DNA from: Methylomicrobium sp.
GTDB lineage: Bacteria; Pseudomonadota; Gammaproteobacteria; Methylococcales; Methylomonadaceae
Length of the DNA: 13,560 nt
Direction of reading: 5' to 3'
Assembly: GCA_007135635.1 (NCBI GenBank)
Contig: SLIO01000390.1
Coordinates: 1 to 13,560, forward strand
Shown here: in pieces, positions 1 to 13,560 of the stretch
How the letters are laid out: each line of letters opens with the position of its first letter
Numbering within the stretch: position 1 is the stretch's first letter
Translations under genes and position numbers: made by a program
Notes under the pieces: model-generated
Databases searched by the model: none
Seen by the model: only the letters and a program-made list of their open reading frames with translations
What the model was told of the DNA's origin: nothing

Positions 1-440
1 AAATCGGATAGACTTTTCGATCGGCTTTGATTTTCTCGGTAGTAAGCACCGCCAAGTCCCAGCGGTCCGACGGCGGGAGCGAAGGCATTGGAAGGTAAGT
101 CATAGAGTCCGACATGTTGCGCTTGAACCAGGCCGTCGACCCAATCGGTTTCTAACTTTAAACCTAAGCGAATACGGGTTGCCCAAAAATCGTATTCGTG
201 TTCGGTAGGCGTTGTGACCGACGGGAGGCCGGGCTCGAAAAAATTCCATGCTTCATAGCGGGCACGCAGCTCACCGGTTAATGTCAATCCCGGCACAATT
301 TGCCCCAAGGGCGTATCGTTTTCCGAGGCAAACACTGTATTTTTCATGGGTAATGTGGCTAGCAAGCTAAAAAACAATGTGGTTCGGCTAAGTTTCCGGC
401 ACTTGTGTTTTTGCAGCGATAAAGTTTGAACAGATAACAT
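1..440 (-). CDS. Alginate-export-family outer-membrane porin (N-terminal part only)
   Basis: Partial gene that runs off the left edge; about 146 codons are visible. The product begins with a basic n-region (KHKCRKLSR), a hydrophobic stretch (TTLFFSLLATLP) and a likely signal-peptidase site after VFA. It continues with GLTLTGELRARYEAWNFFEP, the first beta-strand pattern typical of the alginate_exp porin family. ATG at 440 is preferred over ATG at 446 because AAGAGGA lies 6-7 bases ahead of it, whereas it abuts the other. It follows nrtCD on the same strand after 163 bp, so it is probably the last visible member of the nitrate operon. By inference it is an outer-membrane channel for nitrate or another small anion; the family name says little about substrate. 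A separate promoter cannot be excluded (TATACT lies just upstream) but no good -35 was found. Confidence 0.75.
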   Translation of the reverse strand, partial: MLSVQTLSLQKHKCRKLSRTTLFFSLLATLPMKNTVFASENDTPLGQIVPGLTLTGELRARYEAWNFFEPGLPSVTTPTEHEYDFWATRIRLGLKLETDWVDGLVQAQHVGLYDLPSNAFAPAVGPLGLGGAYYRENQSRSKSLSD

Positions 441-514
441 AGACATTCCTCTTGTAAAGTATAAAAAATCGTAAAACGGCTTTACCTGGAGATAAGCGGC
501 TTTATTCCAGTTGG

Positions 515-552
515 TCGGGACTTTTCTTGTTAAAAACGCAATGCCGTCCCGA
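515..552. repeat. Inverted repeat between nrtCD and the porin gene
   Basis: TCGGGAC (515-521) and GTCCCGA (546-552) form a perfect 7-bp stem around a 24-base loop. The T6 run that follows is on the plus strand, opposite to the genes on both sides, so it does not read as a terminator of the nrt operon. It could end antisense transcription, or be an RNA-processing or stability hairpin in the operon transcript. Function unknown. Confidence 0.35.
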
Positions 553-603
553 TTTTTTCATGATGGTTTAGATGATTTTTCTGATAGGCGGGATTTGTTA
601 AAA

Positions 604-2367
604 TCAATGCCTGTGTTCGCACTCGTTCAGGAAGGTCAGTAGGCTTTCGCGATACCGGTAATAATCGGGATGATCGAGTAGCGCCTTTCGCGTGCGCGGC
701 CTCGGTAGATCTATCGTTTCGATCTTGCCGATCTTCGCGTGCGGACCGTTGGTCATCATCACGACCCGGTCGGCGAGCAGGATGGCCTCGTCGACATCGT
801 GGGTCACGACGATAGCGGTTACATGGGTCCGTTCCCAGACTTCCATCAGAACTTCCTGCAATTCCCAACGAGTCAGCGAATCGAGCATGCCGAACGGTTC
901 GTCGAGCAATAACAGTTTCGGCGACAATGCAAAGGCACGGGCGATACCGACTCGTTGGCGCATTCCGTTGGAGAGGTCCGCCGCTTTTTTATTCATCGCA
1001 TCGGCAAGACCGACGCGAGTTAGATAATATTCGACGATATCGTCGCGCTCGGACTGGGATGCATGCGGGTAAACGTTGTCGACGCCGAGCATGACGTTTT
1101 CGAATGCGGTCAGCCAAGGAAACAAGCTGGGTGATTGAAACACGACGCCTTTATCCGGGCCGGCGCTGTCGACTTCCTTGTTATCGAGTACGATGCCGCC
1201 TTCGGAGACGTCGGTTAATCCTGCGGTCATCGATAACACGGTCGATTTGCCGCAGCCCGAATGTCCGATAATTGATATGAATTCGCCTTTTTTGACTAAC
1301 ATATCAAATCCGTCAACGACTTTGACTGTGCTTTTGCCATCGGGCGTCGGATAAATTTTCGAGAGTTGCGAGAATTCCAAATATCGGGGTTTACCCAAAT
1401 CGTCTTGTTTGGGTTTTAGAGCCGAGGCGTCCAGTTTCCAATCGTTACTGGTATTGGGCCGAACATCCGGCAATACCACGTTTTCTTTATCGGACGCATT
1501 GGTTTTTTGCATGCCGACGCCCATCAAATAACGCGTGATTTCGGCGCGGAGTTTCTTGAACGTTTCGTCGTGATTCAGTGCGGTTCGGTCGCGAGGCCTT
1601 GCCAACGGAATCTTGAAACTGGGGCCAAATGTCGCGCCGGGGCCAGGAGTCAACGCGATGACACGATCGGCCATATAGATCGCCTCGTCGACATCGTTCG
1701 TAATCAAAATGACGGTTTTCTTTTCCGCTTGCCAAATCGTGAGAATTTCATCTTGAAGTTTGCCGCGTGTCAGTGCATCTAATGCGCTCAACGGTTCGTC
1801 CAGCAACAAGATATCCGGATTGGCTGCCAAGGCTCTAGCCACATTGACGCGCTGGCGCATGCCGCCCGACAATTCGGCAGGTTTTTTGGCCATTGCAGCA
1901 CCTAAATTGACCATCCGTACGTATTTTTCGGTATGCGCTTTACGGCGGTCGGCAGGCCAATCCTTGAAGCGTTGATCGACGGCCAGAGCGACATTGTCGA
2001 ATACGTTCAGCCAAGGTAGCAGCGAATAATTTTGAAAGACCACGCAACGGTCAGGCCCCGGTCCTTTAATCGGCCTGCCTTGTTTAAGTACTTCGCCGCT
2101 GTCGGCCTCGATCAATCCGGCGATCGTTGAAATCAGCGTGGTTTTGCCGCTGCCGGAAAAGCCTACGATCGCAATGAATTCACCGGCCTCGATATCCAAA
2201 TTAATGTCTTTCAATACCGACGTTTTAGCTTTACCTTCGCCATAAGATTTGCAAACATTTTTGAGTTGCAACAAAGGTTTCAAGGAATGTACCTTGGCTG
2301 TTCGTGAAGCGGGTGCCGGCGTCTCGATTGACTCTTCATCGATACTTAGGAGTTGGGATGTTTTCAT
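604..2367 (-). CDS. nrtCD: Nitrate ABC transporter, two fused ATPase domains (NrtC/NrtD type)
   Basis: Protein of 587 residues with two complete ABC ATPase domains, energising nitrate (or nitrite/cyanate) import at the inner membrane with NrtB. Domain 1: Walker A GFSGSGKTT (69-77), Q-loop FQNYS (~111), signature LSGGMRQR (166-173), Walker B ILLLDEP (186-192). Domain 2: Walker A GHSGCGKST (368-376), Q-loop FQSPS (~410), signature LSNGMRQR (465-472), Walker B LLLLDEP (485-491), switch H523 in VVVTHDVDEA. The two are joined by a polar linker (~285-325). Cyanobacterial NrtC pairs an ATPase with a NrtA-like domain and NrtD is separate; here two ATPases form one chain and no binding domain is present. 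Oddity: the domain-1 switch histidine is Asn224 (LITNDVDEA). Start ATG 2367 follows GGAG by 6 bases and lies 12 bp after nrtB, so coupled translation is likely. Confidence 0.9.
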   Translation of the reverse strand: MKTSQLLSIDEESIETPAPASRTAKVHSLKPLLQLKNVCKSYGEGKAKTSVLKDINLDIEAGEFIAIVGFSGSGKTTLISTIAGLIEADSGEVLKQGRPIKGPGPDRCVVFQNYSLLPWLNVFDNVALAVDQRFKDWPADRRKAHTEKYVRMVNLGAAMAKKPAELSGGMRQRVNVARALAANPDILLLDEPLSALDALTRGKLQDEILTIWQAEKKTVILITNDVDEAIYMADRVIALTPGPGATFGPSFKIPLARPRDRTALNHDETFKKLRAEITRYLMGVGMQKTNASDKENVVLPDVRPNTSNDWKLDASALKPKQDDLGKPRYLEFSQLSKIYPTPDGKSTVKVVDGFDMLVKKGEFISIIGHSGCGKSTVLSMTAGLTDVSEGGIVLDNKEVDSAGPDKGVVFQSPSLFPWLTAFENVMLGVDNVYPHASQSERDDIVEYYLTRVGLADAMNKKAADLSNGMRQRVGIARAFALSPKLLLLDEPFGMLDSLTRWELQEVLMEVWERTHVTAIVVTHDVDEAILLADRVVMMTNGPHAKIGKIETIDLPRPRTRKALLDHPDYYRYRESLLTFLNECEHRH

Positions 2368-2379
2368 GTCGATCTCCGG

Positions 2380-3396
2380 TCAAAGCGTTTTGCCGAACGA
2401 GAAGGCTTGCTGCAACGAATGCATGATGCGGTCCAGTATGAAACCGATGATGCCGATCGTGAATACCGCGACCATGATGCGGCCTAAGGAATTCGAGCTG
2501 CCGTTTTGGAACTCGTCCCAGATAAATTTTCCGAGGCCTGGGTTTTGTGCGAGCATTTCGGCCGCGATTAATACCATCCAGCCGACCCCAAGCGACATGC
2601 GCATGCCGGTGAAGATATAAGGCAAGGCCGAAGGCAGTACGATCTTCTTGATCTGCATGCTCCAGTTGAGGCGAAGGACTTTGCCGACATTGACCAAATC
2701 CTTGTCGATCGACGAGACGCCGACCGCGGTATTGATTAGCGTCGGCCATAGCGAACAGAGCGTGACGGTAATTGCCGAGGTCAAAAAAGCTTTTTCGAAC
2801 CATGAGTCGTCCGTCGTGATGTAGACCGCGCTGACAACCAGCGTCACAATCGGCAACCAAGCGAGCGGCGAAACCGGTTTGAAAATCTGAATCATCGGGT
2901 TGATCGCGGTATTGATAACCGGGCTCATGCCGCAAAGAATACCAAGCGGCACTGCAATCACCGTTGCAATTATAAAGCCTGTGAATACGGTATAAAGACT
3001 GGTCAGTATCTGGTCGAAGTAAGTGGGTTTGCCGGTATAAGGGCGCGTTTTGATTTCGGCTTGCGGGTTTCCTGCCAATTTTTGCTGATTACGAATTTTT
3101 TGGCGCTCGTAGAACGCGGTCATTTTCTCTCTCTCGGCATGATGGGCGTCAATCAGGCCCTGTGCTTCTTGCCATACGGCTTGAGGTCCCGGAATCGCGC
3201 CCAAGCTGGTTTGGATTTTTACGGCCGAGGCATTCCAAAGGCCGAGGAAGATGATGAAAGCCAGTATCGGCACGACGATCGTCAAGCCGATTTGCCGCAT
3301 TTGCTGCTGCGGATTTTCGCCGGCACAAAGCTTGACGAACGGGACGAACCAGGTCAGCCCGGTCACGCTGAAAAATTTAATTAATGTAGTCGACAT
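2380..3396 (-). CDS. nrtB: Nitrate ABC transporter permease
   Basis: Inner-membrane permease of 338 residues, partner of the NrtA binding protein and the NrtCD ATPases. The first membrane helix (~36-55) is followed by a long charged segment (~72-130, rich in K, E, Q and R), then about five further helices typical of the BPD_transp_1 fold. The cytoplasmic coupling (EAA) loop is visible as NVGKVLRLNWSMQIKKIVLP just before ALPYIFTGM. The length exceeds cyanobacterial NrtB (~280) because of the N-terminal extension and hydrophilic insertion; as far as I recall such an insertion also occurs in proteobacterial nitrate permeases, so it is not odd in itself. The start has AGG 6 bases upstream. It lies 143 bp downstream of nrtA and 12 bp upstream of nrtCD, same strand. 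Taurine or cyanate permeases are the main alternatives, made unlikely by the neighbours. Confidence 0.9.
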   Translation of the reverse strand: MSTTLIKFFSVTGLTWFVPFVKLCAGENPQQQMRQIGLTIVVPILAFIIFLGLWNASAVKIQTSLGAIPGPQAVWQEAQGLIDAHHAEREKMTAFYERQKIRNQQKLAGNPQAEIKTRPYTGKPTYFDQILTSLYTVFTGFIIATVIAVPLGILCGMSPVINTAINPMIQIFKPVSPLAWLPIVTLVVSAVYITTDDSWFEKAFLTSAITVTLCSLWPTLINTAVGVSSIDKDLVNVGKVLRLNWSMQIKKIVLPSALPYIFTGMRMSLGVGWMVLIAAEMLAQNPGLGKFIWDEFQNGSSNSLGRIMVAVFTIGIIGFILDRIMHSLQQAFSFGKTL

Positions 3397-3539
3397 GGCG
3401 AACCTATTTGTCTAGCCAACGGTCATGTTTAGGCATGAATCTCTAAAAAAATGGCGCGTCCTTGTGCCTAGGCGACATTCGATGTCACTATCGGAAGGGG
3501 GTGTTCTTTTTTACTTATTTTATTTGGAACGATGCGCCG

Positions 3540-4937
3540 TCATTGGCTGATTTTTCCGTCTTTCAATATTTCTTTGCCTTTCAGGCCGATTGTGAATTTC
3601 GTTAGGTATTCGTTCGGTTTGCTGCCGTCGTAAACGATGCCGTCGATAAAATCGGCTTGTGGCGGTTTGAATCCGGTTTCGTTTTCAGGCGGAAAATCGC
3701 TTGCCTTGGCTTTACCTTCGGCAATCAATTCTTTTGCGGCGGCCCAATAGATATCCGGGCGATAAACTTTTTTAGCCGTTTCGATGAACCACTCGTCGGG
3801 TTTGTATTCGTTGATCTGTCCCCAGCGGCGCATTTGCGTCAGAAACCAGATTGCATCGCTGTAATAGGGATAAGTGGCGTTATAACGGAAAAACACATTG
3901 AAATCGGGCAGCGAACGGACATCGCCTTTTTCATATTCAAAAGACCCGGTCATGCTGTTGGCGATCACTTCGAAGTCGGCGCCGACATAACGGCTGTCGG
4001 AAATAATCTGGGCTGCTTCTTTGCGGTTCTTATTGTTTTCGGCGTCGAGCCAAATCGCTGCCCGAATCAGAGCTTTAACTATGCCCAAGTGCGTGTTCGG
4101 GTTTTTATCGGCCCAGGTTTTACTGACACCGAATACTTTTTCAGGATTGTTCTTCCAAATTTCATAATTGGTCACGACCGGTACACCGATGCCTTTGAAC
4201 ACCGCTTGCTGATTCCACGGCTCGCCGACGCAATAACCATAAATCGTTCCGGCTTCGAGCGTGGCGGGCATTTGCGGCGGCGGAGTGACCGACAGCAGTA
4301 CATCGGCATTGAGTTGTCCGGTAGTTTCTCCCGGCGGCGCGTAATAACCGGGTTGAATACCGCCGGCCGCCAACCAATATCGCAGTTCGTAGTTATGCGT
4401 CGAAACCGGAAATACCATGCCCATGTTGAACGGTTTCCCTTCGGCCTTGAGTTTTTCGATCACCGGTTTTAAAGATTCGGCTTTGATCGGATGCACCGGC
4501 TTGCCGTCTTGCATTGGTACATGCGGTTTCATTTGTTGCCAGATGTCGTTCGAAACAGTCACGGCATTGCCGTTTAGGTCCATGCTAAACGCGGTAATCA
4601 CATCGGCTTTCGTGCCGAAACCGATCGTCGCCCCCAAGGGTTGTCCCGCTAGCATATGCGCGCCGTCCAACTCGCCGTTGATGACGCGGTCGAGCAGTAC
4701 TTTCCAATTAGCTTGGGCTTCCAATTGCACATAAAGGCCTTCATCTTCGAAATACCTTTTTTCATAGGCGATGGCCAAGGGCGCCATATCAGTTAGCTTA
4801 ATGAAACCTAATTTCAGGTCTTCTTTTTCAATGTTTTCTACCGAAGCAGCATTCGTGCTTGCCAAAAGCAAAAAGGCTGCGGAAGCCGTTAATACGGTCG
4901 GTCGTCGTTTAGCGTTGGATACTAGGGTTAATTTCAT
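3540..4937 (-). CDS. nrtA: Periplasmic nitrate-binding protein (NrtA/NasF family)
   Basis: Solute-binding protein of about 465 residues that captures nitrate and hands it to NrtB. The recommended start is ATG 4937: it gives a clean signal peptide ([14 protein letters not shown], then [16 protein letters not shown]) and has CGGAA 7 bases upstream. The longer frame from 4988 has no ribosome site and its first codons lie inside the leader terminator. No lipobox cysteine is seen, so the protein should be a free periplasmic one, like Klebsiella NasF and unlike cyanobacterial lipoprotein NrtA. Family-like segments include [54 protein letters not shown] and [12 protein letters not shown]; from memory the His of STHNY and the VGEPWN region lie near the ligand in NrtA/CmpA. 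Bicarbonate (CmpA) is an alternative ligand, but the nitrogen-type promoter and leader favour nitrate. Confidence 0.9.
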
Positions 4938-4968
4938 GATCAGTTCCGCAAAGATATAAAATTTAGGC

Positions 4969-5024
4969 AAAAAAAAGGCGCCAGACATACGATAAGAGGG
5001 GTTTATCGCATGTGAGACGCCTTT
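4969..5024 (-). terminator. Intrinsic terminator (attenuator) in the nrtA leader
   Basis: On the minus strand the 5' arm (5024-5003) and 3' arm (4995-4974) pair over 22 positions with only two mismatches and two G-U pairs, around the 7-base loop ACCCCTC. A run of eight U (4976-4969) closes it. It lies 32 bases before the nrtA start and inside the predicted transcript, so it should stop transcription before the structural genes unless antitermination occurs. Confidence 0.9.
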
Positions 5025-5033
5025 GTCTAGTTT

Positions 5034-5071
5034 GCTCGACAGTGAGCTTGTCAGTTACTCCATCGTTGGAG
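5034..5071 (-). promoter_or_regulatory. Tandem hexaloop hairpins: ANTAR antiterminator RNA target
   Basis: Reading the minus strand, hairpin 1 is CTCC-AACGAT-GGAG (5071-5058) and hairpin 2 is GCTC-ACTGTC-GAGC (5047-5034), separated by 10 bases. Both loops are six bases with A at position 1 and G at position 4, the conserved feature of RNA bound by ANTAR-domain proteins (NasR, NasT, AmiR, EutV). The stems are only 4 bp each, which is usual for this motif. They sit between the predicted start point and the terminator. By inference a NasR- or NasT-like protein encoded elsewhere binds here when nitrate or nitrite is present and prevents termination. Confidence 0.82.
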
Positions 5072-5085
5072 ATTTATTAATATTT

Positions 5086-5103
5086 AAGCAAATGTAATGC
5101 CAA
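5086..5103 (-). promoter_or_regulatory. Sigma54 (-24/-12) promoter of the nrt operon
   Basis: Minus strand TTGGCATTACATTTGCT has GG and GC separated by exactly 10 bases, matching TGGCAC-N5-TTGC with one central deviation (T for C in TGGCAC). The predicted start is near 5076, about 5 bases before leader hairpin 1. Sigma54 control fits nitrogen-limitation regulation through NtrC, as known for Klebsiella nasF. Confidence 0.75.
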
Positions 5104-5253
5104 TAGTGAGATGATTTCGGGATGGTAATTAATGATTCAATGATAACAATAGGCTATGGTTGGATTGGATTTGAGAAGGGAGTAAGGGTGGTTTTCTCCT
5201 GGGCAAGCGATGACATGATTTAGTGCAGCGATATTCATTGCCAGGGTAGTACG

Positions 5254-5268
5254 GCACCAAATGTGTGC
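5254..5268. promoter_or_regulatory. Candidate NtrC-binding site
   Basis: GCAC-CAAATGT-GTGC keeps both half-sites and the N7 spacing of the NtrC consensus (TGCACC-N5-GGTGCA). It lies about 155 bp upstream of the -24 element, a usual enhancer distance. Only one good site was found; an isolated half-site (GTGC on the plus strand) lies at 5223-5226. Confidence 0.5.
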
Positions 5269-5276
5269 ATTGGCGT

Positions 5277-5318
5277 TATACCTTTCGCACTTCAAATTTC
5301 GGCAGTGCCCGAGGAGGC
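5277..5318. repeat. Imperfect direct repeat, copy 1
   Basis: The first 29 bases match those of copy 2 (5831-5872) with four differences, including the shared block CAAATTTCGGCA; after a one-base gap both end in AGGAGGC. The copies bracket the palindrome-rich gene-free region. Probably a dispersed intergenic repeat of this genome, which cannot be proved from one window. Confidence 0.55.
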
Positions 5319-5335
5319 GCCGGGGTGTCCGATCC

Positions 5336-5374
5336 CTCACCTAACGCTAGGTGAGCGACCAGCATGGAGCTGGT
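5336..5374. repeat. Two adjacent perfect palindromes
   Basis: CTCACCTA-ACGC-TAGGTGAG (5336-5355) is a perfect 8-bp stem with a 4-base loop. Two bases later ACCAGC-ATGGA-GCTGGT (5358-5374) is a perfect 6-bp stem with a 5-base loop. They form the left part of a structured non-coding block that runs to about 5547. Confidence 0.6.
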
Positions 5375-5394
5375 ATATAGCCTACATGGACGTA

Positions 5395-5467
5395 TTTACC
5401 CAGCACCTAAATTCCATAGCCCATTGGCTATGATTAACTATCTGGGGTAATTTAGGTGCTGAGTAAA
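5395..5467. repeat. Long nested palindrome (cruciform-like)
   Basis: The outer arms CAGCACCTAAATT (5401-5413) and AATTTAGGTGCTG (5449-5461) are perfect complements over 13 bp. They are extended by TTTAC (5395-5399) and GTAAA (5463-5467) after one mismatch. Inside lies a second perfect hairpin, CATAGCC-CATT-GGCTATG (5415-5432). No coding capacity and no T-run follow, so it is not a simple terminator. It is likely a repetitive extragenic palindrome or a small non-autonomous element. Confidence 0.65.
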
Positions 5468-5500
5468 CCCATCCATGGGGGCTTGACGACAGCAATCGAA

Positions 5501-5547
5501 CGCCAAGGATGGCGTGAATGCAGACTTTGCATGGAGCAAAAATCTGC
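5501..5547. repeat. Further hairpins of the palindrome block
   Basis: CGCCA-AGGA-TGGCG (5501-5514) is followed by a two-part stem, GCAGA/TCTGC enclosing TTTGC/GCAAA with apical loop ATGGA (5520-5547). The loop and closing bases GC-ATGGA-GC are the same as in the hairpin at 5358-5374, which suggests one repeat family. Confidence 0.5.
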
Positions 5548-5830
5548 CCTGCTGCCGACATCCTCGCTAGCCACAGCTTATCCCTTCATAAAGTTAGCTA
5601 ATTTTTGAGTATAAAGGGAGTAAAATAACTCGGCGGAGATTCATTGGTTCGGCTAATCTACCATAGCAATATATTCACTCAGCTATTTCTAATTTATGTC
5701 TGAATAGCGCGAAAAAATGGAATGCGGAATTCTGTATCGACGGTAAAGATTGGGGAAACGTCAAAGAGCATTAACACATATTACTCGTGTGCCGGCTGGG
5801 TAGAGATGCTCCTCCCATTATCCGGTCCTT
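5548..5830. other. AT-rich gene-free stretch
   Basis: No coding region with family resemblance was seen on either strand. The only structure noted is a weak inverted repeat, TCCCTTCATA (5581-5590) with TATAAAGGGA (5610-5619), one mismatch, 19-base loop. The promoter of the downstream reductase presumably lies here, but no convincing -35/-10 pair was identified. Confidence 0.4.
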
Positions 5831-5891
5831 TTATATCTTTCACATTGCAAATTTCGGCAAAGCTTAGGAGGCATTCCAGTGCCGAATTTTG
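5831..5891. repeat. Direct repeat copy 2 and hairpin before the reductase gene
   Basis: Copy 2 of the repeat (5831-5872) lies just upstream of the reductase start. Its CAAATTTCGGCA (5848-5859) pairs with TGCCGAATTTTG (5880-5891), 11 of 12 positions. The 20-base loop holds AGGAGG (5866-5871), a perfect Shine-Dalgarno core that is too far from the ATG at 5899 to work in linear form. Copy 1 lacks the pairing arm. Confidence 0.45.
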
Positions 5892-5898
5892 ATCTACG

Positions 5899-7605
5899 AT
5901 GAGTATAATTATGAATCCAAACAAAAAACGTATCCTCATCGTCGGCGGCGTGGCCGGCGGAGCGACTTGCGCGGCGCGTGCGAGGAGACTTTGCGAAACC
6001 TGCGATATCGTCGTGTTCGAACGAGGCCAGCACGTTTCGTTCGCCAATTGCGGCCTGCCTTATTTCGTCGGTGACGTGATCGAGTCCGAAGCCAAGCTGT
6101 TGGTGGCGAGCCCTGAGCTGTTCGAGCACCGTTTCAACATCGAAGTCCATACCGAAACCGAAGTCACGCGCATCGACCGGCAAGCGCGGACGATAGAAGT
6201 GCATGATTTGAAAACGGGTATATACCGCGAAGAAGCCTATGATGCCCTGGTTTTGGCGACAGGCGCCCAGCCGATCCGTCCGCCCTTGCCGGGCATCGAT
6301 CTGCCGGGTATCTATGTCTTGCGCAATATTCCGGATAGCCGAAAGATCAAGGCCGCTACCGCTCGGTCAACACGCGCTCTGATCGTCGGAGGCGGTTTCA
6401 TCGGGCTCGAAATGGCCGAGAATCTTGTCGCATTGGGACTCGACGTCACGTTGCTGGAATTGGCAGACCAAGTGCTGCCGCCGCTGGATGCTGAAATGGC
6501 CGGCTATGCCGCGGAGCGCTTGAGGGCCAACGGCGTCGAATTAAGGCTCGGCGAAAGCGCAGTGTCGTTCGAACGGCACCCGGAGCGCGGTTTGATCTTG
6601 CATACCTCGAAAGGCGCAACGCTCAACACCGATCTGGTCATCCTGGGAATCGGCGTGCGTCCCGAAGCCACGCTGGCTCGGGAGGCCGGATTGGAACTCG
6701 GCGAGCTCGGCGGAATCCGGGTCGATCCCTACATGCGGACGAACGATCCGGCGATTTGGGCGGTCGGCGATGTCGTCGAAGTCAAAAACCGGGTCACCGG
6801 GCAATGGCAACTGGTCCCGCTAGCAGGACCCGCCAATCGGCAGGGAAGGGTTGCGGCGAGCACAATCATTCATAATTTCTCTTGCGGAGATAAAGAAGCA
6901 TTGCCGCCCCTGGCTTTCGATGGCGTGTTGGGAACCGCTGTATGCGAGGTTTTCGGGCTCACCGTTGCCTGCACCGGCGCCAGCGAAAAACTATTGAAGC
7001 GGCTCGGCATGGATTTCGAGAAGGTCTATTTGCATCCCGGTCACCATTCCAGTTATTTTCCCGGCGCGAAACCGATACACATCAAGTTATTGTTCTCGAA
7101 AACGGACAACAAGATTTTGGGCGCGCAAGCCGTCGGCGAGAAGGATGTCACGCGGCCGATCGACGTCATCGCGACGGCGCTGATGCAAGGAGCCACGATA
7201 TTCGATTTGGAGAATTTGGAGCTTTGTTATGCGCCGCAGTTCGGCGCGGCCAAAGACCCGGTCAACGTCGCCGGCATGTTGGCCGGCAACCATCAGCGCG
7301 GCGATTTTCCTTTGGCGAACTGGGACGAGCTGAAGACAACCTCGGCCTTGTTGGTCGATGTGCGCAGCGCGGATGAATATGCCGGCGGTCATGTTCCGAC
7401 TGCGCAAAACTTACCGCTGGAATCGTTACGCGACCGCATTCACGAGTTACCGACGGATCGTGATATCTGGTTGATCTGCGGTGTCGGGCAGCGCGCTTAT
7501 TACGCGTATCGCCTATTGGCGCAAAACGGTTTGCGGGTCAAAGTACTGTCCGGCGGTATGAAGACTTACTCGGCAAGAAGGCGGGCGACGGAAGCGAGTG
7601 GATAG
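5899..7605 (+). CDS. CoA-disulfide / persulfide reductase with C-terminal rhodanese domain
   Basis: Cytoplasmic flavoprotein of 568 residues. FAD-binding motif GGVAGG (16-21), single redox cysteine C51 in SFANCGLPYF, NAD(P)H motif GGGFIG (164-169), second FAD motif TNDPAIWAVGD (281-291) and the dimer-interface block ELCYAPQFGAAKDPVNVAGM (441-460) are in family order. A rhodanese domain follows (~475-560) with active-site C527 in CGVGQRA. This is the CoADR-RHD architecture: NAD(P)H-dependent reduction of CoA disulfide or of CoA/protein persulfides, the rhodanese cysteine carrying sulfane sulfur. Plain NADH oxidases of the same fold lack the rhodanese domain. The start is uncertain between ATG 5899 and ATG 5911; neither has a strong ribosome site. 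It is followed by 233 bp before feoAB, so it may be a separate unit. Confidence 0.88.
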   Translation: MSIIMNPNKKRILIVGGVAGGATCAARARRLCETCDIVVFERGQHVSFANCGLPYFVGDVIESEAKLLVASPELFEHRFNIEVHTETEVTRIDRQARTIEVHDLKTGIYREEAYDALVLATGAQPIRPPLPGIDLPGIYVLRNIPDSRKIKAATARSTRALIVGGGFIGLEMAENLVALGLDVTLLELADQVLPPLDAEMAGYAAERLRANGVELRLGESAVSFERHPERGLILHTSKGATLNTDLVILGIGVRPEATLAREAGLELGELGGIRVDPYMRTNDPAIWAVGDVVEVKNRVTGQWQLVPLAGPANRQGRVAASTIIHNFSCGDKEALPPLAFDGVLGTAVCEVFGLTVACTGASEKLLKRLGMDFEKVYLHPGHHSSYFPGAKPIHIKLLFSKTDNKILGAQAVGEKDVTRPIDVIATALMQGATIFDLENLELCYAPQFGAAKDPVNVAGMLAGNHQRGDFPLANWDELKTTSALLVDVRSADEYAGGHVPTAQNLPLESLRDRIHELPTDRDIWLICGVGQRAYYAYRLLAQNGLRVKVLSGGMKTYSARRRATEASG

Positions 7606-7838
7606 ACACTTAGGGGCTCCTATCGAGGTCGGTTCCGCTAAAAATAGTCGACAATATCTCGCCTCACTGATCGATCGCGAAAGCCCGACATTTGCCGTTA
7701 TGCCAGTAGGATCCGTTACTGAGCCAGGTTTTATCCTAAATTAGGCTATTGAAAAATCGTTCGACATTGACGAGTTTGCTGATTCAGCAACGGCATTGGC
7801 GTTTTTTTGCGTTTTAAAAGGAACAAGGGTGGCTTTCG
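7606..7838. other. Intergenic region before feoAB
   Basis: No gene recognised. It contains a perfect palindrome TTGCTG-ATT-CAGCAA (7776-7790) and, 11 bases on, a T7 run (7802-7808); the gap makes a standard intrinsic terminator unlikely. No Fur-box-like sequence was found by eye, though feo genes are often Fur-controlled. Confidence 0.4.
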
Positions 7839-9770
7839 ATGCAAATGAATTTGAGCGATATGAAAGCGGGCGATTGCGGACGCGTCGTGGGTTATGAAAA
7901 AAGCTTCTTGCCTTACCGGCAGAAACTGCTGGCAATGGGTTTGACACCCGGCACCGAATTCAAAATTATGCGAGTCGCGCCGTTAGGCGACCCGATTGAA
8001 ATCAGAGTGCGCGGTACCGATCTCAGCGTGCGTCCGGATGAAGTCGCCGGCTTGAGAATCGAGCGTCTGGACAAAGTGCCGCCGGCCCCGAAACCTGTAT
8101 TGCAGAAACAGGATTACACCGTCGCCGTCATCGGCAACCCCAACTGCGGTAAAACCACGCTGTTCAATGGTTTGACCGGCGCCCGTCAGCATGTCGGCAA
8201 TTGGGCCGGCGTGACCGTCGAGCGCAAAAGCGGCTTTTATCGGTTCGATGACAAAACCGTCAAAATTGTCGACTTGCCCGGCATCTATGCGTTGGATGTG
8301 AGCGGTACGGCCACGGCGCTGGATGAAAAAATTGCCAGGGATTACATTCTTTCGCGGCAGGCGGACCTGATCATCAATATCGTCGATACATCGCATCTCG
8401 AACATAACCTCTATCTGACGACACAACTGCTGGAAATGCGGCTGCCGATGCTGGTGGTGCTGAATAACATGGACGACGCGACCGGTCGCGACATCAAGAT
8501 CGATAGCGACGAAATAGCCCGCCGCCTCGAATGTCCGTTGGTTTCATTGGTTGCGACTCGAGTCGATGAGGTCAGGGCCTTGAAAGCGGCGATCAACCAA
8601 TGGCTGGAGCATAAAGTTCTGTCGCATTCGGTGATCGATTATCCGCTTGCGATTCGGGAAGCGCTGGATCGACTCACACCGATGGTCGAGCAACAATTGG
8701 ACAACCTTGACGGCGATGCGCGCTGGTTCGCCGTCAAATTGCTGGAACAAGACGCTTTTGCGCTCGGCCATGCCGATCCGTTACTGATCGAGACCGCGAA
8801 ACAACTGCGCCGGACGATCGAAGACCAAGCCGCCGAAGAGGCGGATCTAATGATTGCGGACAGCCGCTACGGTTTTATCGGTCTATTGGTCAATGAGACG
8901 CTCACGCGGCAGTCCGAGCTGGGCAGGAACTTTTCCGATAAGATCGATAATGTGATATTGAACCGTTTCTTGGCCATTCCGATCTTCTTCGGCGTGATGT
9001 ATTTGATGTTCACGTTCACGATCAAACTCGGGCGTGTCTTCAAACCGTTCTTCAACGACCTGTCTCAGGCGCTTTTTGTCGATGGCATGGGGCATTTACT
9101 GATGCTGCTCGGCAGTCCGCAATGGCTGATCATGCTGATCGCCCAGGGTGTCGGCAACGGCATCCGGGAAGTGGCCGCGTTCGTTCCTATTCTCGGTTTT
9201 CTGTATCTGTTCATTTCGGTATTGGAGGAGTCGGGTTACATGGCCCGCGCGACGTTTGCGATGGACCGCTTGATGCGCGTCCTGGGATTGCCCGGCAAGG
9301 CCTTTGTACCGATGATTCTGGGTTTCGGCTGTAACGTGCCGGCGATGCTGGCGACCCGGACATTGGAGAATCCGCGCGACCGGTTGCTGAGTATCCTGTT
9401 AAATCCGTTCATGACCTGCGGCGCTCGGTTGGCCGTATTTACCTTGTTCGCCGCGGCTTTTTTCCCGGACCACGGCGGCTTGATCGTATTCGTGCTTTAT
9501 TCGATAGGCGTGTTCTTCGCAGTGCTCACTGCATTGCTGCTGAAGAACACGTTTCTGACAGAGGAATTTTCGCTGGTGATGATGGAAATCCCGAATTATC
9601 ACGTTCCGAAGCTGAAAAATGTATTGATTAACAGTTGGACCCGGGTTAAGACCTTCGTCGTGCGGGTCGGAAAAATCATCATGGCCTGGCTGGCCGGGAT
9701 TGCGATGATCGCCGTTGCGATTGTGTTGGTGTTTCGCCACTGGGGGAAACGCCGGCAATCATCGATCTGA
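7839..9770 (+). CDS. feoB: FeoA-FeoB fusion, truncated before the second Gate domain
   Basis: Ferrous-iron uptake protein of the inner membrane. Residues 1-~80 are a FeoA SH3-like domain (LSDMKAGDCGRVV, AMGLTPGTEFKI). A short Pro-rich linker leads to the FeoB G domain: G1 GNPNCGKTT (99-107), G3 DLPG (145-148), G4 NNMD (209-212), G5 SLVAT (236-240). Membrane part: EESGYMAR (463-470) and the first Gate motif GFGCNVPA (495-502), then YHVPKLKNVLINSW (587-600) and one more helix. The chain ends at 643 with FRHWGKRRQSSI, so FeoB makes up only ~560 residues against a usual ~750-770. The second Gate (in E. coli VGLFTGAMAKEVVVGTLN) and all later helices are absent, and no continuation was found in other frames. 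Ribosome site: AAGGGTGG, 6 bases before ATG. Function is doubtful. Confidence 0.85.
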   Translation: MQMNLSDMKAGDCGRVVGYEKSFLPYRQKLLAMGLTPGTEFKIMRVAPLGDPIEIRVRGTDLSVRPDEVAGLRIERLDKVPPAPKPVLQKQDYTVAVIGNPNCGKTTLFNGLTGARQHVGNWAGVTVERKSGFYRFDDKTVKIVDLPGIYALDVSGTATALDEKIARDYILSRQADLIINIVDTSHLEHNLYLTTQLLEMRLPMLVVLNNMDDATGRDIKIDSDEIARRLECPLVSLVATRVDEVRALKAAINQWLEHKVLSHSVIDYPLAIREALDRLTPMVEQQLDNLDGDARWFAVKLLEQDAFALGHADPLLIETAKQLRRTIEDQAAEEADLMIADSRYGFIGLLVNETLTRQSELGRNFSDKIDNVILNRFLAIPIFFGVMYLMFTFTIKLGRVFKPFFNDLSQALFVDGMGHLLMLLGSPQWLIMLIAQGVGNGIREVAAFVPILGFLYLFISVLEESGYMARATFAMDRLMRVLGLPGKAFVPMILGFGCNVPAMLATRTLENPRDRLLSILLNPFMTCGARLAVFTLFAAAFFPDHGGLIVFVLYSIGVFFAVLTALLLKNTFLTEEFSLVMMEIPNYHVPKLKNVLINSWTRVKTFVVRVGKIIMAWLAGIAMIAVAIVLVFRHWGKRRQSSI

Positions 9771-9783
9771 AACTTCTAGCTCC

Positions 9784-9900
9784 GTAGGGTACGCTATGCG
9801 TACCATGGCAACCCCACCGACGTTAACACATGGCGATATGATTTGATTTAGGTAGGAGTTTGGTGCTTAACGGTATAGAGGTTCGCGCAGCGTACCCTAC
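9784..9900. repeat. Inverted-repeat element (REP/MITE-like) beside truncated feoB
   Basis: GTAGGGTACGC (9784-9794) and GCGTACCCTAC (9890-9900) are perfect 11-bp inverted ends of a ~117-bp non-coding element. The left end also forms its own hairpin, GGTACGC-TAT-GCGTACC (9788-9804). It starts 13 bp after the feoB stop. No clear target-site duplication was seen. Confidence 0.6.
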
Positions 9901-9973
9901 ATTAGATGTATAACGACGAGCGCAGGAGCGTGGGAACGAGAGGAACTACTGAAATCTATCAAAGGGCATAAAC

Positions 9974-11962
9974 ATGATTGATAAAACCTATTTCGACAAA
10001 CTCGATGCGGAACTGCTGAAGATCAGTCCGCGCCAAGACATCATGCTGCTGCGCGTCATCGCCGCCGTCATTCCGGTAGTCTTGTTCGGCCTGGATGCGC
10101 TTTATGATTTGCCTGTCTTGTATTGGCTGGGCATTCCGTTTTATCTGTTCTGTTTGGTGCTCTATCTCGAAAGCCTTTTGAAAAGCGTGTTGTTCTTGCG
10201 CAAGGTTTCGGCGGAATTGCTGATCGTTTTGGTCATGACAGTGACGCTGATCGATGGCGCGCCGTTGAGCGGGGCGATGGTGGCCTGGTTCATCGGCTTG
10301 GGGTTGTATATCTCGTTCACGATCATCCGGAAGAACCGGGAAAAGATCGAAAGCCTGATTCAGGAAGGCAAAAAGACCGCCCGGATGCTGAAGGACGGCG
10401 ACATCGTGGAAGTGCCGATCAACCAAATTCGGCTAGGCGCCACGGTGCTGATTCCGAAAGGCGCGATGGTCCCGATCGACGGAATCATCATCGAAGGCGC
10501 CTCGGCGATCGACGAATCGACGATTACCGGCGAACCTTTTCCGGTATATAAGGAGACCGGTGCCAGCGTGACATCGGGCACGCTGAATCTGAGCGCGCCG
10601 TTGCAGGTCAAGGCCGACAAAAACGGGGACGATTCGTTTCTCGCAGTGATCACTCAGGAAATCGAAAACAGTCTGGAGAACAAATCCGATCTGCAGCGGC
10701 GTGCCGATACCACAGTGCAGATTCTGCTGTTGTCGGTCACGGCTTATGCCTTTTTGCTGCTCTACATCACCGGCAGCCTGCATCTGATGGCGACGGCACT
10801 GGCGGTGGTTTGCCCTTGCGCCTGGGCGCTGGCGACGCCGACTGCGTTCGCCGCCAATATCGGGCGTCTGGCTCGTTCGAATATTCTGGCCCGCGGCGGC
10901 GAGCCGCTGGAGAACATGCAGGACATCAAAACGCTGATTCTGGATAAAACCGGCACGGTCACGTTGGCAGAACCCGAAGTCAGCCAGGTCATCGAAATGG
11001 GCCTGCCGACACAGGGTCTATTGGAACTGGCCGCATCGATCGAATCGCGTTTCGATCATCCGATCGCGCATTCGATCGTCAATTATGCGAAAAAACAGGG
11101 TCTGACCGCTTTCCTGCCGGTCGAGAAAGCCGAGGACCTTCCGGGCCGCGGCATCAAGGCCCGGATCGAAGGCCGGGAAATTCTGATGGGCAGCGCCGAA
11201 ACGCTGAGTCTTCAGGACATCGAGTTGCCGGCTATCGACTATACCGGCCGTGCTATCTGGCTGGCGGTCGACCGCGAAGTCCAAGGCGTCATCGTCATTC
11301 GCGATATCATGCTGTCGGAAATGCGGGGCTTGGCCGATACGATCCGTGCCTGCGGTATCGAAAAGGTCGTGCTCGCGACCGGCGATAACGAAGAACAGGA
11401 AGCCAAACGCGTGGCCGACTACATCAACGCCGATGAATACCATTTCAATTGCAAGCCGGACGACAAAACCGCGCTGGTCAAAAAATTTCAGGAACAGGGC
11501 AAAGTGGCGATGGTCGGCGATGGCGTCAATGACGCACCGTCTTTGGCCGCCGCCAATGTCGGCATCGCGATCGGCGGGCACAAGAACGTCAATCTGGCGA
11601 TCATTTCATCGGATGTCGTCATTCTCGGTCACGATGCTCAGGATCTGGTCACGATCTTGCGGCTCGGTCATAAAATGGGCGGCATCATCAGGCAAAATTA
11701 TCTGTGGGCCGTCGGTTTCAACAGCGTCGGCCTGGCGCTGGCGACATTCGGCTTGCTCAATCCGATTTTTGCCGCGCTGCTGCATCATGTCAGTTCGGTG
11801 TTCGTCGTCGTCAATGCCGGCCGGCTGTATTTCACCGGCATCGAGCAATCGCTGGTCGGTCCTATGTTCAGAAAAATGGATGAGCTGACCGGCCGCGATC
11901 AGCACTGCGAACCCGAGCGCTTGCGCTCCGATTCCGACGTGGTCGCTGAGCAGGAGTCCTGA
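9974..11962 (+). CDS. P1B-type heavy-metal-translocating ATPase
   Basis: Inner-membrane metal pump of 662 residues. About four N-terminal helices (~23-118) come first; the actuator loop has TGEP (185-188); the metal-site helix has CPC (280-282) in VCPCAWALATPTAF; the phosphorylation site is DKTGT (324-328, D324); FDHP (360-363) stands for the usual SEHP of the nucleotide domain; ATGDN (468-472) and GDGVND (515-520) complete the hinge. The last two helices include FNSVGLALATFGLLNP and LLHHVSSVFVVVNAGRL. There is no N-terminal HMA or Cys-rich domain. CPC fits transition-metal pumps, but CPCAW and HHVSS differ from textbook Cu (CPCALG, MxxSS) and Zn types, so the metal is not assignable; the feo and ferritin neighbours hint at iron. 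Start ATG has AGGG 7 bases upstream. The stop is 3 bp from the next start. Confidence 0.9.
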   Translation: MIDKTYFDKLDAELLKISPRQDIMLLRVIAAVIPVVLFGLDALYDLPVLYWLGIPFYLFCLVLYLESLLKSVLFLRKVSAELLIVLVMTVTLIDGAPLSGAMVAWFIGLGLYISFTIIRKNREKIESLIQEGKKTARMLKDGDIVEVPINQIRLGATVLIPKGAMVPIDGIIIEGASAIDESTITGEPFPVYKETGASVTSGTLNLSAPLQVKADKNGDDSFLAVITQEIENSLENKSDLQRRADTTVQILLLSVTAYAFLLLYITGSLHLMATALAVVCPCAWALATPTAFAANIGRLARSNILARGGEPLENMQDIKTLILDKTGTVTLAEPEVSQVIEMGLPTQGLLELAASIESRFDHPIAHSIVNYAKKQGLTAFLPVEKAEDLPGRGIKARIEGREILMGSAETLSLQDIELPAIDYTGRAIWLAVDREVQGVIVIRDIMLSEMRGLADTIRACGIEKVVLATGDNEEQEAKRVADYINADEYHFNCKPDDKTALVKKFQEQGKVAMVGDGVNDAPSLAAANVGIAIGGHKNVNLAIISSDVVILGHDAQDLVTILRLGHKMGGIIRQNYLWAVGFNSVGLALATFGLLNPIFAALLHHVSSVFVVVNAGRLYFTGIEQSLVGPMFRKMDELTGRDQHCEPERLRSDSDVVAEQES

Positions 11963-11965
11963 AGG

Positions 11966-12265
11966 ATGTCTTTGCTGGCGTTGAGTCATGTCGTTCATGC
12001 GGCGGGACCCAAAAAGATTCTCGACGGTCTGGATTTCGGTATCGACGAAGGGGATGTGCATGCGCTGATCGGCACGAACGGCACCGGCAAGAGCACCCTG
12101 GCGCGTTTGATAATCGGCAGCGAGGGTTTTCGGCTGAGTTCCGGGCAAATCCTGTTTGCCGGTCGAGACACGCGAGGCGGCGCCCTATATTTTGGCGATC
12201 TCGGCCGCCAGCTTCATCTATATCGCGACGGCCGATCTGATACCGTCTTTGCACCGGCAGGTTAG
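11966..12265 (+). pseudogene. SufC-like ABC ATPase, N-terminal fragment
   Basis: The first ~68 codons read as the start of a SufC-like ATPase: LSHVVHAAGPKKILDGLDF, then VHALIGTNGTGKSTLARLII with Walker A at 36-44, then SSGQILFAGRD. After that the resemblance ends and the frame runs on as 30 unrelated residues to a stop at 12263-12265; Q-loop, signature, Walker B and switch histidine are all missing. The start is well formed (AGGAG 9 bases upstream, 3 bp after the ATPase stop), so the intact gene was probably coupled to the P1B ATPase. The DNA after ~12170 belongs to a different gene (the ZIP fragment), read out of frame here. It cannot hydrolyse ATP as it stands. Confidence 0.7.
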
Positions 12266-12344
12266 CCTGCTGACATCGCTAAGCCAAATATTGCTGTTGC
12301 TCACGGGCATCGCTACCATCGCTTTCTTTCACCTTGGAGGATAA
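12171..12344 (+). pseudogene. ZIP-family metal transporter, C-terminal fragment
   Basis: In a frame different from the ABC fragment, EAAPYILAISAASFIYIATA followed by DLIPSLHRQ and SQILLLLTGIATIAFFHLGG reads as the last two membrane helices of a ZIP metal transporter of ~250 residues, with the helix-to-loop pattern ASFIYIA.ADLIP.LH. Only ~57 residues remain. No start of its own is evident; a TTG at 12156 is in frame but lies in the ABC fragment. The stop TAA overlaps the good ribosome site (GGAGG) of the ferritin-like gene, so the original gene order at its 3' end is preserved. The assignment rests on pattern recognition; another small multi-helix transporter is possible. Confidence 0.6.
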
Positions 12345-12347
12345 ACC

Positions 12348-12818
12348 ATGAACCCGCTCACCGAAACTGAATTCGCAGCCCTCAACGAGGCTTTGGATGA
12401 TGAATACCGAGCCTTGGCGATTTACGATCAGGTCATTGCCGACTTTGGCGATGCGCCGCCGTTCGGCAACATACGAGATGCGGAAAGCCGACACATAGAC
12501 GCGCTTTGCACACTTTTTTCTCGCTATGGGTTAACCATTCCCGAGAATCCCTGGTTGGGAAAGGTTGAGCGTTATGCCAGCCTGCGAGAAGCTTGCGAAG
12601 CTGGCGTCGCCGCCGAAATCGCCAATGCCGAAATCTACGAACGGTTAGTTCAAGCCACGGAACGACCGGATATTCTGACCGTGTTCCGCAATCTTCGGGA
12701 TGCATCGCAGCAGCGCCACCTGCCGGCGTTTCAGCGATGTGTGCAAGGATCATCCGGACGCGGTGGACATGGCGGCGGGGAAGGGCATCGCGGCAGACAC
12801 GGGGGCGGCCATGAATAG
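12348..12818 (+). CDS. Ferritin-like DUF2202 protein with Gly/His tail
   Basis: Protein of 156 residues, predicted four-helix ferritin-like fold. Candidate metal ligands in order: E19 (DDEYRALAIY), E46 and H49 (ESRH), E90 or E95 (AEIANAEIYERL), H124 (QQRH). The fourth-helix ExxH of classic diiron proteins reads QxxH here (Q121), so the centre may be altered; I recall this position varying in DUF2202. A low-complexity tail from ~134 is rich in Gly and His (four His in the last 16 residues) and could bind metal. The family's role is not settled; iron storage, oxidation or delivery are guesses. The ribosome site GGAGG is 7 bases from ATG, and the gene starts 3 bp after the ZIP remnant. Its neighbours suggest metal homeostasis. 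Confidence 0.8.
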   Translation: MNPLTETEFAALNEALDDEYRALAIYDQVIADFGDAPPFGNIRDAESRHIDALCTLFSRYGLTIPENPWLGKVERYASLREACEAGVAAEIANAEIYERLVQATERPDILTVFRNLRDASQQRHLPAFQRCVQGSSGRGGHGGGEGHRGRHGGGHE

Positions 12819-12861
12819 GATCGCAGAAGACCGTTGTCAACAGATGTTGCGCCATGCCTAG
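12811..12861 (+). other. Possible 16-codon overlap ORF between ferritin-like and methyltransferase genes
   Basis: ATG 12811 overlaps the end of the ferritin-like gene, and its TAG (12859-12861) overlaps the methyltransferase start at 12854. The peptide would be MNRIAEDRCQQMLRHA. A G-rich run (GGGGGCGG) sits upstream as a possible ribosome site. It could couple translation to the methyltransferase, which lacks its own site, or be the stub of a deleted gene, or chance. Confidence 0.3.
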
Positions 12862-13489
12862 AGTAGCTCCGTTCGAGGATCATCATCAATGTTACGAGGC
12901 GTGGTTCGAAAAGCATGAGGCTGCTTATCTCTCGGAATTGCTGGCCCTGCGGCCATTCGTGCCCTGGGAAGGTTACGGCATCGAGATAGGCGTCGGCAGC
13001 GGTCGCTTCGCGGTGCCGTTAGGGGTACAGGTCGGTGTGGATCCTTCCCCGGCGATGTTGTTCCATGCTTCGGCGCGAGGCATAAAGGTCGTGGAAGGCG
13101 TGGCCGAGAATCTGCCTTTCGAAGTCGGCACCTTCGATTACGCGTTGGTGGTAACGACCATTTATTTTGTGGACTCCCCAGCGAAAATGCTTGCCGAGGC
13201 TCACCGAGTGCTTAAACCGGGCGGCCGCCTTGTGATCGGTTTTATCGATAGGGAAAGCGCCTTGGGACAAGATTATCTGGCGCATCAGGACGAGAGCGTA
13301 TTTTACCGCGAAGCCACATTCATTTCGGCTGACGAAGTGGAGCAACTTCTGCTGGAAACCGGTTTCTCGATCGACGCTTGGGGCCAGATGCTCGCCCGCC
13401 TATTGCCCGAAACTCGGGAGATCGAATCGCTAAGGGCAGGGCGGGGACAATGCGCATTCGTTGTCGTCGCGGCAACGAAAGAGGATTGA
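12854..13489 (+). CDS. Class I SAM-dependent methyltransferase (Methyltransf_11 type)
   Basis: Cytoplasmic protein of 211 residues with a Rossmann methyltransferase fold. Motif I EIGVGSGRF (44-52) binds S-adenosylmethionine, D63 in VGVDPSPAML is the ribose-contact acidic residue, then GVAENLPF (82-89), TFDYALVVTTIYFV (93-106) as motif II, and LKPGGRLVIGFID (120-132) as motif III. The substrate cannot be told; such small enzymes modify metabolites, cofactors or metal(loid)s. ATG 12854 is the first start after an in-frame stop at 12812-12814 and has no Shine-Dalgarno sequence, so translation may depend on coupling from upstream. It is the last gene of the metal-handling run; no intrinsic terminator was seen after its stop. 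Confidence 0.85.
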   Translation: MPRVAPFEDHHQCYEAWFEKHEAAYLSELLALRPFVPWEGYGIEIGVGSGRFAVPLGVQVGVDPSPAMLFHASARGIKVVEGVAENLPFEVGTFDYALVVTTIYFVDSPAKMLAEAHRVLKPGGRLVIGFIDRESALGQDYLAHQDESVFYREATFISADEVEQLLLETGFSIDAWGQMLARLLPETREIESLRAGRGQCAFVVVAATKED

Positions 13490-13540
13490 TTCATTGCAAA
13501 CGACAGTAACACGATAATATACGGGTCTAAAAATCCCTCG

Positions 13541-13560
13541 ATGGAGTGTGGTTTCATGGT
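13541..13560 (+). other. Possible start of the next gene at the right edge
   Basis: GGAG at 13543-13546 stands 9 bases before an ATG at 13556, five bases from the window end. This may be the start of another plus-strand gene, but nothing of the product is visible. Confidence 0.25.

Follow-up and report, generated by a model that had tools for sequence, protein, structure and literature searches.

In the model described for EutV and NasR, the leader RNA carries two hairpins, P1 and P2, whose hexaloops have A at position 1 and G at position 4 (A1/G4), with P2 overlapping the terminator (PMC3369931, PMC3369936), and in eut leaders a linker of 5-12 nt separates P1 from P2 (PMC3369931). It has been argued that one ANTAR dimer holds one loop, passing from the first to the second, and EutX has been described as sequestering EutV (PMC8934654). 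For NasR, a SELEX motif is given as a C:G-closed A1/G4 hexaloop, in a source that also mentions NasT (PMC7496416). The RNA NalA is described in PMC12830290 as having a sigma-54/NtrC start and NasT-dependent antitermination, and c-di-GMP is said there to impair NasT.

We analysed a stretch of 13,560 nucleotides from Methylomicrobium sp. (contig SLIO01000390.1, positions 1 to 13,560; hereafter the window), in which a sequence-only reading had proposed an ANTAR-type antitermination leader ahead of nrtA. By sequence reading and by script, the leader on the minus strand runs H1, H2, H3, terminator and then nrtA (start 4937), and the features at issue are the following:

5253..5269, minus strand: NtrC-like site, TGCACACATTTGGTGCC, 3 mismatches to the NtrC consensus
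5086..5103, minus strand: sigma-54 promoter, TTGGCATTACATTTGCTT, found by pattern; predicted start ~5076
5058..5071, minus strand: H1 hexaloop hairpin, CTCC[AACGAT]GGAG, from the sequence and the alignment of relatives
5034..5047, minus strand: H2 hexaloop hairpin, GCTC[ACTGTC]GAGC, from the sequence and the alignment; probable recruitment (P1) hairpin
5015..5028, minus strand: H3 hexaloop hairpin, AGAC[AAAGGC]GTCT, from the sequence and covariation; probable antiterminator (P2)
4969..5024, minus strand: intrinsic terminator, 22-position stem and U8, from the fold, the script and pairing in relatives
3540..4937, minus strand: nrtA-type substrate-binding protein, 465 aa (PF13379, E 7.1e-99)
2380..3396, minus strand: nrtB-type permease (PF00528; TIGR01183 at 160.7 bits, under its cut-off of 209)
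604..2367, minus strand: ATPase with two nitrate-type (NrtC/NrtD) domains, 587 aa (TIGR01184, 587 bits, above its cut-off, in two stretches)

The leader is ~139 nt long, since the predicted sigma-54 start lies at ~5076 and nrtA starts at 4937, in line with the ~140 bases given earlier. Two 4-bp hairpins with loops AACGAT and ACTGTC, 10 bases apart, had also been described and were located at 5058-5071 and 5034-5047, together with the 22-position terminator stem (4974-5024) and its U8 (T8 at 4969-4976). Absent from that reading was H3, a third A1/G4 hexaloop that overlaps the terminator (spacing: H1-H2, 10 nt; H2-H3, 5 nt past H2). All three window hexaloops have A1, G4 and the C:G closing pair of ANTAR targets and of the NasR SELEX motif, and the H2-H3 linker falls within the 5-12 nt of eut leaders. 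C[ANNGNN]G hairpins with at least 4 pairs number exactly three (H1, H2 and H3) in the 120-nt leader; among 20,000 dinucleotide shuffles of the leader, 19,856 had none, 144 had one and no shuffle had more.

The ABC operon that follows is of the nitrate type, and nitrate is its probable substrate, a view that rests mainly on the ATPase match and on the neighbourhood in relatives. A longer nrtA reading frame starts at 4988, inside the terminator; the start taken was 4937. Relatives of NrtA in Methylomonas, Methylobacter and other Methylococcaceae records share 75-82% identity, and that of one gammaproteobacterial MAG 95%; judged by these, the host would be a gammaproteobacterium of the methanotroph type. 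As a plain intrinsic terminator is present, it might simply be the ordinary terminator of another gene, flanked by incidental hairpins. We regard this as extremely improbable: on the upstream side, the nearest protein-coding gene that matches a family (5899-7605, with oxidoreductase and rhodanese domains) lies on the other strand, the three hairpins exceed all 20,000 shuffles, and a sigma-54 promoter sits directly upstream of them. A simple promoter and terminator scan reported no sigma-70 promoter, and it also left unreported the leader terminator, with its stem interrupted by an internal loop.

Elsewhere in the window, Rfam V_AS7 was matched at 5945-6093 with 44.1 bits (cut-off 90, E 8.6e-6); the match is antisense to the frame 5899-7605, inside which it falls, and most likely reflects coding-sequence similarity. 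FeoA and FeoB domains occur in a single 643-aa frame at 7839-9770.

The terminator stem consists of 9 pairs, a 2x2 internal loop and 11 pairs, and a 184-nt stretch folded at -46 kcal/mol, as compared to a shuffle mean of -29.4 kcal/mol (z -4.5, equalled by 0/200 shuffles). In relatives, 97.6% of the cells of the basal terminator stem are paired, with little covariation. H1 and H2 share no bases with the terminator. The 5' arm of the terminator, by contrast, begins with the H3 loop and some of the H3 3' arm, and H3 and the lower terminator stem are therefore mutually exclusive; forced folds likewise set H3 (5015-5028) against the terminator (4974-5024). The best fold of the full leader contained H1, H2 and the terminator (-38.2 kcal/mol, as against -25.2 kcal/mol with H3 forced). 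When transcripts were cut at 61, 86 or 91 nt, i.e., before or during synthesis of the terminator's 3' arm, H1, H2 and H3 were all in the best fold. Thus, by these energies and truncated-transcript folds, the three loops would be offered first, and H3 would be lost to the terminator unless held. Within the H1 loop, A1 can also pair with U6, and in the energy model H1 appears as a tetraloop.

To compare relatives, upstream regions were cut from 108 nrtA-like loci, of which 103 were full length and a few were distant paralogues. The sigma-54 pattern occurred in the expected zone of 70 of the 103 regions, whereas mononucleotide shuffles gave 1.65 on average; when the zone was drawn slightly narrower, the pattern was not found in 34 of the 103. 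The NtrC-like site of the window has 3 mismatches to the consensus, the mean best of shuffles being 5.5. Its distance from the -24 element, 149-150 nt on the upstream side, is shared by the best match in each of the five same-genus leaders. The best matches in 22 leaders had 3.8 mismatches on average, as compared to 5.6 in shuffles, and one leader (L123) did no better than shuffles.

Hexaloops were counted in the 69 leaders bearing the sigma-54 pattern in the slightly narrower zone, using a looser rule (loop starting with A or G, closed by a C or T opposite G, overlapping hairpins included) that yielded 0.08 hexaloops per shuffled leader. Three were found in 24 leaders, four in 1, two in 16 and one in 17; the remaining 11 of the 69 had none, a point against the attenuator view. 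For a closer look, we took 25 loci, comprising L032, the Methylococcaceae, Methylobacter, Methylomonas and Methylomicrobium records and the main nrtA locus of same-family genomes; Methylophaga and other records, as well as second or fragment loci, were excluded. The promoter was present in 24 of the 25 (L130 being without it), and among these 24 leaders H1 was found in 23, H2 in 20 and H3 in 23. The A1/G4 pattern claimed for both loops of the sequence-only reading stands in the window, yet the first loop base is G in 6/23 H1 hairpins (and in 4/5 same-genus genomes); it is G in 1/20 H2 and 0/23 H3 hairpins.

The H1-to-H3 distance is 43 nt in the window and its genus and 41-46 nt in the other leaders with both hairpins, except for three at 49-51 nt. 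The H2 hexaloop is absent from four of the 24 leaders, all of which keep H3 and two of which (L119 and L124) have a hairpin with a 5-nt loop at that place, and in the three leaders with H1 and H3 and without the H2 hexaloop the H1-H3 distance is 41, 43 and 43 nt. When no loop criterion was applied, the best hairpin had a 6-nt loop in 7/24 leaders at H1, 7/24 at H2 and 20/24 at H3, and another hairpin outscored H2 in 7/24 (the window included); the energy fold prefers H2.

The alignment used for covariation held the 24 leaders, 23 of them distinct. In the true register, 94.9% of the cells of the three hairpins were paired, as compared to 28-55% when the register was slid, and 18 cells had changed on both sides, as compared to 5.3 in shuffles; a slide of +3 columns still gave 14 such cells, with 37% rather than 95% of cells paired. 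H1 and H2 were paired in 93.5% and 94.6% of cells, respectively, and in each of them two of the four pairs had changed on both sides. In H3, the outer pair, whose upstream base lies outside the terminator, took all six standard pair types and was paired in 21/23 leaders. H3 covaries, then, through upstream bases that the terminator does not need.

This was followed up in 45 full-length, promoter-bearing leaders outside the alignment, where H3 was picked by its loop letters and closing pair. Pair 1 was part of this search pattern and only pairs 2 onward count; the check was not fully blind, because the loop list had been drawn from an earlier stem-based listing. An H3-type loop was present in 24 of the 45 leaders, the other 21 being without a listed H3 loop. 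In these 24, pairs 2 and 3 were each formed in every leader, with A-T/G-C exchanges, and pairs 4, 5 and 6 were formed in 18, 11 and 10, respectively.

These data bear on which hairpins do the work. H1 and H2, both A1/G4 in the window and conserved, had been put forward as the acting pair, and they could be the bound pair on which NasR or NasS/NasT acts with no role for H3. Neither overlaps the terminator, and a protein bound to them alone would leave it free to form; H3 does overlap it, as the second hexaloop does in the published model (PMC3369931, PMC3369936). Moreover, H3 is as widespread (23/24 leaders), has A1 in every one of them and shows covariation of its own, and the H2 hexaloop is missing from four leaders that keep H3. 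We therefore consider a role for H1 and H2 as the sole bound pair to be quite improbable. The working antiterminator is most likely H3, which corrects the earlier assignment.

An RNA model, R1, was built from the 24 leaders, the window included, and a whole-genome search scored 88 candidates per genome. R1 was trained on these leaders, and its 16 best whole-genome matches (at least 75 bits) are therefore there by construction. Among held-out nrtA leaders, 8 of 72 loci matched at E ≤0.01 (L047, L051, L064, L066, L073, L076, L085 and L094), and three further matches lay away from nrtA leaders (L035, L080 and L086). In this search, the one R1 match at E ≤0.1 in each of the five same-genus genomes, and in the window, was the nrtA leader (these being training leaders, partly by construction).

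With three loops that could each bind protein on so short a transcript, the terminated leader might serve as a small RNA sponge for the ANTAR protein, as proposed for EutX, with cis control of nrtA being secondary. EutX indeed sequesters EutV (PMC8934654), and Rfam lists P11, the Pseudomonas counterpart of the leader, as a small RNA gene. The single match per genome described above, partly by construction as it is, speaks against such a role, as do the R1 matches found elsewhere, which also precede operon-like frames, as expected of a cis attenuator. We deem the sponge unlikely, and continue with attenuation in cis as the preferred reading.

One of the matches away from nrtA, at L035:3222-3341 in Methylobacter tundripaludum OWC-G53F (34.7 bits), is a like leader with a sigma-54 site, two clear hexaloops and an imperfect third; it precedes an EAL-like frame (by eye) and is divergent from a GAF gene. 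An EAL-like frame also follows NasT in L179.

The sequence-only reading had placed the regulator outside the window, expecting an ANTAR protein, either NasR or a NasS/NasT pair, elsewhere in the genome. The window's own assembly spans 2.78 Mb in 498 contigs and is 79% complete, and its sole ANTAR match is a truncated relic (L001:1435-1698). This relic aligns to positions 110-197 of the second REC-ANTAR protein of the genus (83% identity, with an internal stop) and is flanked by the same two genes as the intact counterpart (epimerase-like and protease-like, by eye), and it reflects either gene loss or an assembly artefact. In G003 (L143), the counterpart interval is several kilobases longer, with further frames.

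Neither the NasT of the genus nor a NIT domain was matched in this 79%-complete assembly, from which the nirBD-narK-nasT region, as known from a same-genus genome, is nearly all missing (contig C314 starts with 138 bases of it, and the only other match spans 43 bases). A NasT-like protein is encoded in 5/5 same-genus genomes, in each of which narK-nasT is divergent from nirB; the nirB leader of all five matches R1 weakly (23.8-24.8 bits, E 0.025-0.039). On the expectation of an ANTAR protein, the window's own assembly, with its relic and its gap at the nasT region, speaks neither for nor against; the five same-genus genomes all encode NasT. A NasR-type (NIT-ANTAR) protein was found in one of the five genomes (G005, L145:6483-7748, not beside nrtA) and not in the other four, and no NasS lies beside NasT in any of the five, contrary to the proposed NasS/NasT pair. 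The reader of the leader is, by this gene content, probably NasT, and the regulator is more likely NasT than NasR. Among the genomes examined, six (G006, G008, G014, G016, G031 and G036) have an ANTAR gene close to nrtA on its upstream side, and a leader match precedes nrtA in five of these six, weakly so in G036, with none in G031.

The nirB leader of the genus lies at L142:5633-5730 on the minus strand, with counterparts in L144, L192, L193 and L194; in that of L142, a sigma-54 site is followed by a degenerate first hairpin, and both a terminator and a loop resembling H3, C[ATTGGC]G, are present. In G010, a 627-aa NIT-domain frame lies ~0.8 kb from the nrtA leader (G010:C97:33820-34533), on the opposite strand.

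An ANTAR match was obtained in 26 of the 41 genomes examined, and the neighbours of the NasT-like gene vary among them. It lies beside NarK in seven (G001-G005, G010 and G015), beside a ~308-aa GAF protein in seven (G006, G008, G009, G012, G014, G016 and G022) and beside NasS in four (G018, G025, G027 and G039). In two genomes (G031 and G036), it sits directly ahead of nrtA with neither a NasS nor a GAF gene, and in G019 and G034 it has no NarK, GAF or NasS partner in the stretch examined; G020, G029 and G040 have only the other REC-ANTAR protein, and G000 has the relic.

The GAF-repeat protein is encoded in 8 of the 41 genomes, none of them of the window's genus, and directly follows NasT in seven of the eight (L169:1911-2846, L170, L171, L172, L173, L197 and L198); in four genomes its gene lies between the ANTAR gene and the leader and nrtA. 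It matches GAF_2 in two stretches, and one of two GAF-repeat proteins tested matched the GAF model of plant NIN-like proteins (26.3 bits, cut-off 24.1), a model carried by 9 of the 120 homologues listed. At E ≤0.001 it has 976 homologues, and the named ones among the 120 listed are mostly from Methylococcales. In its predicted structural model, three GAF-like repeats can be made out by eye; the model is similar to many GAF domains, among them NreA, which was not the best match. The staphylococcal NreA is a GAF protein that binds nitrate (PMC8139620).

As the gene order suggests, the GAF-repeat protein may sense nitrate for NasT; it is a candidate replacement of NasS, and so a candidate NasT partner other than NasS. 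NasT lies beside NarK without NasS in the window's genus, and NasT is followed by the GAF gene in seven genomes of the family, so the sensor may be exchanged and the leader kept. Tentatively, as a proposal that could well fail, we suggest that methanotroph-type Gammaproteobacteria have kept a three-hexaloop nitrate leader and NasT and have swapped the sensor, which would be NasS in some, the GAF-repeat protein after nasT in seven genera, and, in the window's genus, where NasT lies by NarK, no known sensor. The leader itself would be a relay, H1 and H2 recruiting or pre-loading NasT for H3. A literature search, conducted mostly among papers outside subscription, found no description of a three-hexaloop nitrate leader or of a GAF partner of NasT. 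To us, whether sensors are exchanged at a leader that stays the same is a more interesting question than the leader.

Taken together, we consider it highly probable that the leader is a sigma-54/NtrC-driven, ANTAR-type transcription attenuator with H3 as its antiterminator and a NasT-type reader. Counting against this are the relic as sole ANTAR match in the own assembly, the G at loop position 1 of some H1 hairpins, the rival hairpins seen without a loop criterion, the both-side changes at the +3 slide, the low P11 and narK RNA scores, the 34 regions without the sigma-54 pattern and the promoter-bearing leaders without a hexaloop or a listed H3 loop. The anatomy of the leader, the exclusion of H3 and terminator on paper, the conservation and the covariation are products of sequence analysis; that NasT is the reader, nitrate the signal and NtrC the activator, and in what order events occur, we infer. 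When nitrogen is scarce, NtrC would start transcription at ~5076, and the nascent RNA would fold H1, H2 and H3 first. If H3 is unheld, the terminator's 3' arm would take its loop and 3' arm, and transcription would stop at U8. With nitrate present, an active NasT-type ANTAR protein, recruited by H1 and H2, would stabilise H3, and with H3 held the lower terminator stem would be prevented and polymerase would read into nrtABC. By analogy, H2 and H3 would fit the published P1 and P2, with H1 as an extra loop. Since some leaders in nature have two hexaloops and others three, with much the same distance from H1 to H3, they could help with the published question of what a second loop is for in ANTAR leaders if a dimer holds a single one (PMC8934654). 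The antitermination leader first proposed therefore holds as to its kind, given its anatomy, its place before an ABC operon of the nitrate type and the NasT-like protein in 5/5 same-genus genomes, and was incomplete in having missed H3.

As to known systems, the consensus of Rfam P11 (the Pseudomonas nirBD leader), which we presume to be the same RNA as NalA, has, like the window, a sigma-54-like UUGGCAC..CUGC and three A1/G4 hexaloops (AACGAU, AUAGAA and AAAGGC), with GGAC[AAAGGC]GUCC at the 5' base of the last stem, as H3 is in the window. P11/NalA lies ahead of nirBD in Pseudomonas and is read by NasT, whereas the window leader lies ahead of nrtABC. The narK RNA consensus has two loops, C[AACGGC]G and CGAC[AAAGAC]GUCG, which are counterparts of H1 and H3, and no counterpart of H2 was found in it. 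In the Rfam scan, no family exceeded its cut-off in the window, which scored 20.1 bits (E 0.76) for P11 (RF00625, cut-off 70) and 25.7 bits (E 0.21) for narK RNA (RF03032, cut-off 43.2). The eut leaders of Enterococcus faecalis, read by EutV, likewise have P1 and P2 A1/G4 hexaloops, P2 over the terminator and a short linker (PMC3369931, PMC8934654); the window differs in its three loops and nitrate-type operon, and its likely reader, whose receiver-like domain scores under the Pfam cut-off, would not be a phosphorylated response regulator as in the eut system. The nasF leader of Klebsiella oxytoca, read by NasR, shares the C:G-closed A1/G4 hexaloops and P2 over the terminator (PMC7496416, PMC3369936), whereas the window leader has one more hexaloop and a NIT-ANTAR protein occurs in only 1/5 same-genus genomes. 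With three loops in P11, two in narK RNA, and a sigma-54/NtrC start and NasT in NalA, the window leader thus belongs, as far as its sequence tells, to an already known kind, for which it is ordinary, and its layout resembles the three hexaloops of Rfam P11.
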